Below, piece after piece: positions 39,490-44,216 of a stretch of 64,000 nucleotides of DNA; the first letter of the stretch is position 1, and every line of letters starts with the position of its first letter. A model generated the notes under the pieces. The model did not search any database, was not told where the DNA came from, and saw nothing but the letters and a program-made list of their open reading frames with translations. A program made the translations under genes and the position numbers. This stretch comes from Flavobacteriaceae bacterium (GTDB lineage Bacteria > Bacteroidota > Bacteroidia > Flavobacteriales > Flavobacteriaceae): positions 65,967-129,966 of the forward strand of contig NZFW01000026.1 in assembly GCA_002690805.1 (NCBI GenBank). The letters are read 5' to 3'.

Positions 39490-40504
39490 TAAATTTATTT
39501 TTTCTTTAAAAGCTTCAATAATTTTAATTTTTCTTGTTATTGCAGCTGGAGCAACTGTCAGAATGACTGGAAGTGGAATGGGGTGTCCTGATTGGCCAAA
39601 ATGTTTTGGCTATTTGATTCCACCCACAGAAAGAGTTCAATTAGAGTGGAAGTCAAGTTTTTCATATAACAAAAATGAAATAATAATTGTAAATGAATCA
39701 CTTCGAATAGCTAAAAATGACTTTATATCAGGAGATGTTTTTAATGAATATAACTGGGCTCCATATTTAAAACATGATTATGCTATTTTTAATGCATACC
39801 ATACATGGATTGAATTTATAAATAGATTAATTGGAGTAATTGCTGGAATTGCTACACTTTCAATGTTATTTTTCTCAATTTCATATTGGAAAAAAAATAA
39901 AGTAATAGTTTTAGTCTCTCTATTAGTGGTCATTGGTATGGGGTTCCAAGCATGGCTTGGAAAAGAAGTAGTTGACTCCAACCTTCTTCCACTTAAAATA
40001 ACTATTCATATGATAATGGCATTAGCTATTCTTGCATTACTTATTTTAGCTCTACATCTGACTAAAAATAAAAAGATTAATTTAAAAAATAATACAAAAA
40101 TAATTTACATAACTTCAATTGGTTTTATACTCACCTTAATTCAAATTTTTTCTGGAACACAAGTAAGACAATTTATAGATCTTCAAATGAATCAATATCC
40201 CTTTGATCATCAGTTATGGCTTAAGTTTGCACCTATAAAATTTTATTTTCATAGAAGTTTCTCAACAATTATAATAGTAACTCATTTATATCTCTTTTTT
40301 GAGTTCTACAAAAAAAATATTATTCCCAATGCACTAAAGATATTACTCATTTTTATAGGTCTTGAAATTATTACAGGAGTTTTGATGTATTACTTGGATT
40401 TTCCAATAACAACTCAACCGATTCATTTATTCTTAGCAACTGTAATTTTTAGTGCTCAATTATACTTATTGTTTCAATTAAAACTAACGAATTTAAATCA
40501 ATGA
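39482..40504 (+). CDS. ctaA: Heme A synthase (CtaA/COX15)
   Basis: AAGATVRMTGSGMGCPDWPKCFG, YHTWIEFINRLIG, FQAWLGKEVVDSNLLP; multi-TM. Confidence 0.93.
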   Translation: MNNKFIFSLKASIILIFLVIAAGATVRMTGSGMGCPDWPKCFGYLIPPTERVQLEWKSSFSYNKNEIIIVNESLRIAKNDFISGDVFNEYNWAPYLKHDYAIFNAYHTWIEFINRLIGVIAGIATLSMLFFSISYWKKNKVIVLVSLLVVIGMGFQAWLGKEVVDSNLLPLKITIHMIMALAILALLILALHLTKNKKINLKNNTKIIYITSIGFILTLIQIFSGTQVRQFIDLQMNQYPFDHQLWLKFAPIKFYFHRSFSTIIIVTHLYLFFEFYKKNIIPNALKILLIFIGLEIITGVLMYYLDFPITTQPIHLFLATVIFSAQLYLLFQLKLTNLNQ

Positions 40505-40980
40505 TATTAAGAATAAGAACAATTCTAGATGTTGAAGAAGATGTTCTTCGGGACATTGAAATAGATGAAAAATTTCTACTTAAAGATCTTCATGATTTAA
40601 TAATTAAATCATACGGGTTTGAAGGAAAAGAAATGGCATCTTTTTATAAAACTAATGAAGGTTGGGAGCAAGGAGATGAAATGAGCTTATTTGATTTAGG
40701 AATTGGAAAAGATTATTCTAATGATAGTTTAAATACAATTTTTAACTCTGAAAACAATCGACTAATTTATGTCTATGATTTTTTAGAATTATGGACTTTT
40801 TTTATAGAAGTAATGGAGATTTCTGAAATTAATAAAAATACTACATACCCCAATTTAGTTTTTTCTAAAGGAAAGGTGCCAGAAAAGTCCCCATCAAAAA
40901 TATTCCAAGAATCAAATTCTAAAACTGATATTGAAAAAAATGAGGATAATCCTAGTTTAGATTATGATGATTTTTATTGA
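40501..40980 (+). CDS. pRiA4b ORF-3 / IS1096 passenger-like family protein
   Basis: LRDIEIDEKFLLKDLHDLIIKSYGFEGKEMASFYKTNEGWEQG, RLIYVYDFLELWTFFIEV. Confidence 0.75.
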   Translation: MILRIRTILDVEEDVLRDIEIDEKFLLKDLHDLIIKSYGFEGKEMASFYKTNEGWEQGDEMSLFDLGIGKDYSNDSLNTIFNSENNRLIYVYDFLELWTFFIEVMEISEINKNTTYPNLVFSKGKVPEKSPSKIFQESNSKTDIEKNEDNPSLDYDDFY

Positions 40981-41030: not shown

Positions 41031-42095
41031 TTAATTTCTCAAAAAAGAAATCGGTTTAATGTTTTTGTAATTCCTTTTTAAGAAAGCTAATGAAGCTTCC
41101 ATTATATCTCCCATTGATTTACTTTCTTTAAAAGCTTTATCATTTGTAAATTTATAAATTTCAATTTTCAGTTTATTTAAATTTTCATCAATTGTGATTG
41201 AACTTTCTTTCATTGAAGCTAATAATTGATCAATTTTTTCCTCATTGCTTATTATTCTTTTTGCAACAATCGATCTTTCTTCAATTTTATATTGATCTAT
41301 TGAATCATGTGTAAGTTTTTTTTGGATCATTTTAATTAAAGGTTGATTTTCTTTAAAAAATTGAGGACGATAAACTGAAAATCTTCCCTCAAAGCTTTGT
41401 TGATCAAAATCAATGGCTCGAATTCTGTAAATAACTTGATCAAAGTCGTGAATAGGAACTATTACATAATTATAGGCTCTCATGTCGCCCAATAGACGAA
41501 CCATACACCTTTCATTAAACTTTACATATTCTTTTGCAATTTGAGATTGTTCTGATTCTGAACATTTAGGAAGCATCTCTTTTATAAACACATCTCCAGG
41601 TATTCCAGCAACATGTTCTTCAATTAAGGTTGAATCATTCACTAAAAAGTTTAAATTATAAGGTGAAAGCATATGTTCAAACTCCAAGCCAAATACCCTT
41701 GAAGAATCAGTTTTTTTTATATAAAAATAGGTGAAATTATCATTCAAAATATTTCTTACTTTGACTCTAAAAGGTTTTGAATTTCCAAAAGTACAGTAAT
41801 CTATTGCATCAATATTAAGATAACTTAATGTTGACTCATTTCCATCAGAGTGAAGAATAGTGTAAAGTTGTTTTAAACTATAATCAATTTCTTTTAAATC
41901 ACTATCAGAGTAATAAACCCTTGACCACAAGGTGTCATTATCCTTTTCATCATAGACAACTACACTTCCTTGGAACCTTAATAAATCATCGTATGAAATC
42001 GGAATTTCCATCCACCTATTAAATTCAATCAAATATTGCTTTAAAATATTTGATATTGGATAAAAAGGTTTTTTTTTGGAGATAAGTTTTTTCAT
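41031..42095 (-). CDS. Conserved hypothetical protein, possible divergent protein-kinase-like fold
   Basis: 354-aa ORF; FYIKK...LEFEHML, LIEEHVAGIPGD, RLLGDMRAYNYV, RIRAIDFDQQS arranged in kinase order. Confidence 0.8.
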   Translation of the reverse strand: MKKLISKKKPFYPISNILKQYLIEFNRWMEIPISYDDLLRFQGSVVVYDEKDNDTLWSRVYYSDSDLKEIDYSLKQLYTILHSDGNESTLSYLNIDAIDYCTFGNSKPFRVKVRNILNDNFTYFYIKKTDSSRVFGLEFEHMLSPYNLNFLVNDSTLIEEHVAGIPGDVFIKEMLPKCSESEQSQIAKEYVKFNERCMVRLLGDMRAYNYVIVPIHDFDQVIYRIRAIDFDQQSFEGRFSVYRPQFFKENQPLIKMIQKKLTHDSIDQYKIEERSIVAKRIISNEEKIDQLLASMKESSITIDENLNKLKIEIYKFTNDKAFKESKSMGDIMEASLAFLKRNYKNIKPISFLRN

Positions 42096-42146
42096 TTTAT
42101 TACATATAAATACTAAATTACCATGTTTAACAACATAAACAACAAA

Positions 42147-42169
42147 TTTTAAAATTAGTAATTTTAAAA
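42147..42169. repeat. AT-rich inverted repeat (11-bp arms) upstream of uvrB
   Basis: TTTTAAAATTA-G-TAATTTTAAAA, perfect arms, in divergent intergenic region. Confidence 0.6.
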
Positions 42170-42194
42170 GTCTCTTTTAATATTAATAAACATA

Positions 42195-42202
42195 TACATT
42201 TG
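42195..42202 (+). promoter_or_regulatory. -7 element (TACATTTG) for uvrB
   Basis: TAnnTTTG 16 nt upstream of uvrB ATG. Confidence 0.45.
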
Positions 42203-42218
42203 TTTTCAAAATTAATTA

Positions 42219-44216
42219 ATGAAGTTTAAGATTGTTTCTGAATTTTTACCAACTGGCGATCAACCTGAAGCTATAAGAGAAGTTTTGTCTGGTTTCAAAA
42301 ACAATGATAAACATATCGTACTTCAAGGAGTCACAGGGTCAGGAAAAACATTCACCGTGGCTAATGTCATAAAAAATCTTTCCAAACCAACACTAGTTTT
42401 AGCACATAATAAGACTTTGGCAGCACAATTATATTCTGAATTTAAACAGTTTTTTCCTGAAAATGCTGTAGAATATTTTGTTTCTTATTATGATTATTAT
42501 CAACCTGAAGCTTACATGCCCGTTAGCGGAACCTATATTGAAAAAGATCTTTCAATTAATGAAGAAATTGAAAAATTGAGATTAAGTACTACCTCCTCAC
42601 TTCTTTCTGGTAGAAGAGATATCATTGTAGTAGCATCCGTTTCATGTTTATATGGAATAGGAAACCCTGTTGAATTTCAAAAAAATGTGATTGATCTTGA
42701 AATAAACCAAAAAATATCAAGGACTAATCTTCTTAAAAAATTAGTTCAAAGTTTATATTCAAGAAATATTAATAATTTTGAGAGAGGAAACTTTAGAGTT
42801 CAGGGTGATATAATAGATATATATCCAGGATATACTGATACTGCATTTAAAATTCATTTTTTTGGTGATGAAATTGATGAAATTGAATCATTTGATCCTA
42901 TTAATAATAAAATTCTAAATTCTCAAGAACAAGTCACCCTCTACCCTGCAAATATGTTCGTAACATCACCTGATATAATACAAAATGCAATTCATCAAAT
43001 TCAGTTTGATCTAGTAAAACAAGTTGATTATTTTAAGGAAATTGGAAAACATTTAGAAGCCAAACGATTAAAAGAAAGAACTGAATTTGATTTGGAAATG
43101 ATTCGTGAGCTTGGTTATTGTTCAGGTATCGAAAACTATTCAAGATACTTAGACGGAAGAAATCCAGGAACTCGACCTTTTTGTTTGTTAGATTATTTTC
43201 CGAAGGACTACTTAATGGTTATTGACGAAAGTCATGTTACAATATCTCAGGTTCACGCCATGTATGGTGGAGATAGATCTCGAAAAGAAAACCTTGTTAA
43301 TTATGGGTTTCGTTTACCTGCAGCAATGGATAATAGACCATTAAAATTTGAGGAGTTTGAAAGTTTACAAAATCAGATTATGTATGTTAGTGCCACTCCT
43401 GCAGATTATGAACTTGAAAAAACTGAAGGTCATATAATAGAGCAAATTATTAGGCCTACAGGTCTTTTGGATCCAAAAATTGAAGTAAGACCTAGTTTAA
43501 ATCAAATTGATGATTTAATTGATGAAATTCAAAAGCGAATTGAAAATGATGAACGAACTCTAGTCACAACATTAACAAAAAGAATGGCTGAAGAATTAAC
43601 TACATATTTATCTAGAGTCAATATACGGTGCAGGTATATTCATAGTGATGTAGATACATTGGAAAGAGTTGAGATAATGCAAGACCTGAGACTTGGTAGA
43701 TTTGATGTTTTAGTTGGGGTTAACCTATTGAGGGAAGGCTTGGATCTACCAGAGGTTTCTTTAGTAGCAATTCTGGATGCCGATAAAGAAGGTTTTTTAA
43801 GAAGTAGCAGGTCTTTAACTCAGACTGTTGGAAGAGCTGCAAGAAATTTGAATGGAAAATCAATAATGTATGCAGATAAAATAACAAATAGTATGAATAA
43901 GACAATAAATGAAACAAATTACAGAAGAACCAAACAAAAAGAATACAATACTAAGCACAATAAAAAGCCTAAAGCTTTAAACAAGTCATTAAATAATGTA
44001 TTGGCTAAAAACTCCATCTCATCATACTCAAAAGAAATAGAAAAGCATAAAATTTCAAGTTCTAAATATAAATTAAAAAGTAAAGAAGATTTTGATAAAG
44101 AAATACGAAAAACAAGAAAGAGTATGGAAAAAGCTGCTAAAGAATTAGATTTTATCGAAGCAGCATCACTTCGTGATAAAATTAAAGTTCTTCAATTAGA
44201 AAAATCAAAATTGTAA
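42219..44216 (+). CDS. uvrB: Excinuclease ABC subunit B
   Basis: GVTGSGKTFTVANVI, YFVSYYDYYQPEAYMP, IDESHVTISQVHAMYGGDRSRK, GVNLLREGLDLPEVSLVAILDADKEGFLRS; C-terminal UVR motif. Confidence 0.98.
   Translation: MKFKIVSEFLPTGDQPEAIREVLSGFKNNDKHIVLQGVTGSGKTFTVANVIKNLSKPTLVLAHNKTLAAQLYSEFKQFFPENAVEYFVSYYDYYQPEAYMPVSGTYIEKDLSINEEIEKLRLSTTSSLLSGRRDIIVVASVSCLYGIGNPVEFQKNVIDLEINQKISRTNLLKKLVQSLYSRNINNFERGNFRVQGDIIDIYPGYTDTAFKIHFFGDEIDEIESFDPINNKILNSQEQVTLYPANMFVTSPDIIQNAIHQIQFDLVKQVDYFKEIGKHLEAKRLKERTEFDLEMIRELGYCSGIENYSRYLDGRNPGTRPFCLLDYFPKDYLMVIDESHVTISQVHAMYGGDRSRKENLVNYGFRLPAAMDNRPLKFEEFESLQNQIMYVSATPADYELEKTEGHIIEQIIRPTGLLDPKIEVRPSLNQIDDLIDEIQKRIENDERTLVTTLTKRMAEELTTYLSRVNIRCRYIHSDVDTLERVEIMQDLRLGRFDVLVGVNLLREGLDLPEVSLVAILDADKEGFLRSSRSLTQTVGRAARNLNGKSIMYADKITNSMNKTINETNYRRTKQKEYNTKHNKKPKALNKSLNNVLAKNSISSYSKEIEKHKISSSKYKLKSKEDFDKEIRKTRKSMEKAAKELDFIEAASLRDKIKVLQLEKSKL

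Follow-up and report, generated by a model that had tools for sequence, protein, structure and literature searches.

What does the 354-aa open reading frame beside uvrB encode in the window, the whole stretch of 64,000 nucleotides from a Flavobacteriaceae bacterium analysed here? An earlier note, made from the sequence, had described an orphan protein that displays the motif order of a kinase, matches no recognised family and could be either a kinase or a pseudokinase. Here, the reading frame, its homologues, its predicted structure and its genomic context were analysed, and the protein, denoted P0001, is probably a soluble single-chain ATP-dependent phosphotransferase of the protein-kinase-like (PKL) superfamily, from an unnamed, mostly vertically inherited family of the Bacteroidota.

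Gene and neighbourhood

The reading frame was found at exactly the coordinates of the earlier note, 41031-42095, with an ATG start. The strand, which that note did not give, is minus, so that the gene runs from its start at 42095 to its stop at 41031, and the start codon is backed by the alignment of homologues. On the plus strand, uvrB begins at 42219, across a gap of 123 bp; the two genes are therefore divergent, and both promoters are presumably located in the intergenic region at 42096..42218. On the opposite flank, a PRiA4_ORF3-like gene (PF07929, E 6e-16; 40501-40980, plus strand) is convergent with the P0001 gene at a distance of 50 bp, and such a gene adjoins the family gene in many Flavobacteriaceae. 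The P0001 gene thus stands alone beside uvrB, as had been described, and since its neighbours are divergent on one side and convergent on the other, it is probably transcribed on its own here. The neighbours in the lineage of the window are unrelated housekeeping genes, and outside that lineage the context of the family gene is variable.

Conserved residues and motif order

All five motifs reported earlier are present in P0001, in the order described (coordinates below are on the minus strand). FYIKK (residues 124-128; 41712..41726) lies at the end of predicted beta3, where K127 (41715-41717) is the invariant lysine and K128 is not invariant. LEFEHML (residues 137-143) belongs to predicted helix alphaC (residues 131-143; 41667..41705), in which both E138 (41682-41684) and E140 (41676-41678) are invariant. 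The hinge-like motif LIEEHVAGIPGD (residues 157-168) includes EEHVAGIPGD (residues 159-168; 41592..41621) between predicted beta5 and alphaD, with E159, H161, G164, and P166 invariant. The catalytic-loop motif GDMRAYN (residues 203-209; 41469..41489), part of LLGDMRAYNYV (residues 201-211), contains the invariant D204 and N209, and in distant members it reads GDMHAGN or GDMHSGN, including GDMHAGNFV. The putative metal-binding motif DFD (residues 229-231; 41403..41411), invariant at all three positions, follows predicted beta8 within RIRAIDFDQQ (residues 224-233); the distance from D204 to D229 is 25 residues, close to the spacing of about 24 first estimated. The position of the Gly-rich loop, which corresponds to G52 of PKA, is occupied by a G-N-S-K-P-F-R turn that links predicted beta1 to beta2 (residues 104-110; 41766..41786), with N105, P108, and R110 invariant and G104 retained in 82/86 homologues. 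This conserved GNxxPFR turn contains no GxGxxG.

K127, E138, E140, D204, N209, D229, F230, and D231 are invariant in 86/86 non-redundant homologues, and the K, E, D, N, and D residues on which the earlier reading depended are among them, so that conservation does not refute it. All of the core five (K127, E138, D204, N209, D229) fall on columns of alignment A2 that are invariant, of which there are 46; for five blindly picked positions of the 354 residues the chance of this would be about (46/354)^5, roughly 4e-5. Ten key PKL residues were defined by Kannan et al., including K72, E91, D166, N171, and D184 of PKA (PMC1821047), and the equivalents of these five are present in P0001 as K127, E138/E140, D204, N209, and D229. 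At position 202, where the HxD motif has its His (H164), P0001 carries a Leu that is invariant in alignment A2.

Predicted fold and structural matches

The AlphaFold2 model built with 34 homologues displayed a pLDDT of 84.7 and a pTM of 0.82; the model from the single sequence (pLDDT 33) was useless. Beyond residue 92, the predicted elements follow the order of a kinase, beta1-beta2-beta3-alphaC-beta4-beta5-alphaD-alphaE-catalytic loop-beta7-beta8-metal Asp-C-lobe helices, with beta1 at residues 93-101, beta2 at 109-115, beta3 at 120-128, alphaC at 131-143, beta4-beta5 at 150-160, alphaD-alphaE at 167-202, and beta7-beta8 at 209-228. In the Foldseek search against the PDB, all of the best 50 matches listed were kinases or pseudokinases (probability 0.47-1.00), the best E being 1.9e-3 and none reaching 1e-3. 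Against viral models, four matches fell under E 1e-3, all annotated as protein kinases. The check by AlphaFold and Foldseek that had been proposed therefore returned a kinase topology with kinase-fold entries as the best matches, and gave no refutation.

The best PDB match (E 1.9e-3, probability 0.96) was the kinase domain of the class III lanthipeptide synthetase ThurKC (PDB 8sam, 8sap). Unlike P0001, ThurKC is a multi-domain enzyme of 842-859 residues, and the two share a TM of 0.25 and 14% identity. Global TM-scores among the PDB matches listed were 0.18-0.29, and such low values imply either that the geometry is unlike known kinases overall or that the placement of the lobes was mis-modelled. 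We read the model as a kinase-like fold with a lobe arrangement that is unusual or mis-modelled.

Comparison with known families

The earlier statement that the protein belongs to no named family holds, with Pfam, NCBIfam, PHROGs, and PADLOC yielding no match to P0001 above chance. For the homologues, Pfam and NCBIfam likewise gave nothing above chance; Pfam scans of 34 and 27 of them returned only scattered chance matches, and a search of PDB sequences with P0001 and two profiles found nothing credible. The APH model (PF01636) was matched by none of the homologues scanned, and the family was not filed as a member; neither P0001 nor the homologues scanned matched HipA (PF07804) or eukaryotic-type protein kinase (PF00069) in Pfam. 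The analysis as a whole supports the earlier reading, with an uncharacterised, conserved, kinase-like family of the Bacteroidota that has no name, which may be an addition to the PKL catalogue provided that KINtaro does not already hold it.

Profile-profile comparison with hhalign was carried out against six kinase families, with 32 unrelated neighbour families as controls. APH ranked first, with a score of 28.6 against 24.8 for the best unrelated control and a probability of 9.6%, a ranking that we take weakly, as a lead and not as membership. The beta3 Lys, alphaC Glu, hinge, D-x4-N loop, and metal Asp occur in the same order in both families, and the catalytic loops are aligned in register. 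P0001 differs from APH in the absence of a Pfam match, in the identity of only 11% over the aligned columns, in the Leu that replaces the HxD His, in an extra N-terminal region of approximately 90 residues, and in a longer beta7-beta8 hairpin. For fructosamine kinase (PF03881), the catalytic loop LLHGDLWSGNFMV is in register with RLLGDMRSYNYVI, but the score of 19.3 is within the range of the unrelated controls and there is no Pfam match. DUF2252, which we considered on account of kinase-like motifs, was set aside: only two sequences were recovered for it, and it is not one of the 25 best hhalign comparisons.

Distribution, inheritance, and selection

The term "orphan" applies to P0001 insofar as no family has been named; in the sense of a protein that lacks relatives it does not, as hundreds of homologues form a widespread conserved family. 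At least 406 stretches coding for relatives were found in GTDB genomes, and the 80 that were kept carry Bacteroidota-type titles. In the phylum sample, a match was present in 100/396 Bacteroidota genomes (about a quarter), among them 38/42 sampled genomes of the window's own family. Of 60 relatives sampled, 33 genomes have the gene, including 5/6 other genomes of the same genus, with one copy each. It is thus a single-copy gene in most sampled Flavobacteriaceae-type genomes, small marine ones included. Plasmids and phages were searched for the family gene with no match. The lone match from IMG/VR (L295, 1-145) was rejected since it looks like an assembly chimera, in which approximately 33 codons resembling a flavobacterial family gene pass abruptly into unrelated phage-like sequence.

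In a tree of 86 non-redundant proteins, the members group for the most part by taxonomic family, although some families of the same class are split. This is the pattern that vertical descent would give, and the family appears to have been inherited largely in that way. Strong purifying selection acts on the gene, with a dN/dS of about 0.05-0.07 among members of the genus. With its complete kinase active site, this selection and no family model, the family is a concrete target in the search for a phosphorylation step that has so far gone unrecognised in abundant marine bacteria.

Two exceptional genomes were encountered. One (G149) contains, besides its ordinary copy (L146), a second and strongly diverged copy (L147:9219-10322) that has approximately 37% identity to P0001 and retains the catalytic residues. 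In another (G306), a family-gene remnant of 41 codons with an internal stop was found (C1:3158288-3158410); the gene is intact in G246 and G428, which belong to the same taxonomic family, and the remnant is a recent loss.

Proposed activity and alternative readings

The reading frame, its conservation, the selection on it, the predicted fold, and the residue placement were obtained by computation; the binding of ATP and metal, the catalysis, and the type of substrate in the favoured reading, an ATP-dependent phosphotransferase, are what we infer from them. Judged from the placement of residues and from other PKL enzymes, Lys127, held by Glu138 or Glu140 of alphaC, would orient the phosphates of ATP. 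Mg2+ would be bound by Asn209 and Asp229, perhaps also by Asp231, and the acceptor hydroxyl would be positioned by Asp204. The acceptor may be a small molecule or another non-protein compound, in an APH-like use of the fold, and a non-protein acceptor is somewhat likelier than a protein. Against the favoured reading stand the absence of the HxD His, the absence of a classical GxGxxG loop, and the lack of any match to a kinase model at the level of sequence, as well as PDB matches that all fall short of E 1e-3, the low global TM-scores, and an APH profile score barely higher than that of the best control.

The possibility that P0001 is not kinase-like at all, with a coincidental order of motifs and a wrong model, draws on the absence of secure sequence homology to kinases, on the low global TM-scores, and on the failure of the single-sequence model. 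It would have to account for a confident model based on the multiple alignment, for invariant residues at kinase-typical places, and for kinase entries throughout the best 50 structural matches listed, and we regard it as highly improbable. PKL proteins with activities other than phosphotransfer are on record (KINtaro paper, PMC10870513), and P0001 could accordingly be an enzyme of the PKL fold that catalyses a non-kinase reaction, such as the AMPylation of SelO or the glutamylation of SidJ, or else a pseudokinase scaffold. Its divergent loop and the DFD in place of DFG would suit such a protein, but the K/E/D/N/D set is fully invariant, a pattern that fits phosphotransfer but would not be expected of a scaffold, and this reading is distinctly unlikely. 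As for the two options of the earlier note, the kinase-like one was strengthened and the pseudokinase one was made less likely: every catalytic residue is retained, and with the set complete, the conserved residues make an active ATP-dependent phosphotransferase likelier than a pseudokinase.

It is unlikely, though this reading deserves more weight, that P0001 is a protein Ser/Thr kinase with a housekeeping protein as its target, like HipA or other atypical protein kinases of bacteria. The family is conserved and single-copy, and most single Foldseek matches are protein kinases, although protein kinases dominate the PDB. HipA kinases (PF07804) have the PKL fold, which is predicted for the P0001 family too, and share with that family a loop of the D-x4-N type. 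In the hhalign comparison, however, the scores of Pkinase (PF00069; 15.4) and HipA (17.4) both fell within those of the unrelated controls. Neither the HRD His nor a Gly-rich loop of the ePK type is present, and at the loci examined no toxin-antitoxin arrangement and no antitoxin-like partner was seen adjoining the family gene. It should be noted that the likelihoods assigned to these explanations are not exclusive with regard to the pathway discussed below, because a role in bacillithiol metabolism is compatible with the kinase readings.

Genomic context and a possible link to bacillithiol

The sole co-directional link repeated across families was with bshA, which immediately precedes the family gene in the same orientation in 11/14 loci of one distant clade, spread over six families. 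In ten of these loci bshA was assigned to position -1 by clustering (L148 (7731-8876), L151, L153, L154, L156-L159, L188, and L189); in the remaining one (L149) it was recognised by reading the ORFs, the BshA ORF there overlapping a family ORF whose start had been set too far upstream. The gap between bshA and the family gene is only 2-6 bp in several loci of this clade, and five of the 11 BshA proteins were confirmed with TIGR03999 (537-577 bits, cut-off 273.7). Bacillithiol derivatives have been reported from Bacteroidetes (PMC6282198), which, together with this adjacency, favours the proposal that the family acts in bacillithiol metabolism, as an enzyme or as a regulator. Nevertheless, all loci adjacent to bshA are from the single clade, in which other neighbours are conserved too, so that shared gene order may explain the adjacency, and the context is different in Flavobacteriaceae and in other families of the class. 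Moreover, BshC was found in 385/396 genomes, far more than the 100/396 with the kinase-like family, which implies that the family is not needed for the pathway; as BshC is nearly universal, its co-occurrence with the family is uninformative about the link. We therefore regard the proposed role as very unlikely. Equally slight is the chance of its more specific form, in which the family would be a PKL enzyme with catalytic activity that serves low-molecular-weight thiol (bacillithiol) metabolism, as a new phosphorylation step or a thiol-linked regulator; its gene adjoins bshA in one clade and stands alone in the lineage of the window.

In L195, what looked like a neighbouring bshA is an ordinary GT4, merged in by the clustering, and cysteine synthase/CBS-like genes near some loci of the same class are too scattered to be of use. 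In three related genomes (L191 (8176-10522), L198, and L200), the family gene is immediately preceded, on its own strand, by a different gene of approximately 413-423 aa (MSSFNITCPKC...), which we take to encode perhaps a DUF2130 protein. The two genes share 8 bp in L191 and L198, an overlap suggestive of translational coupling.
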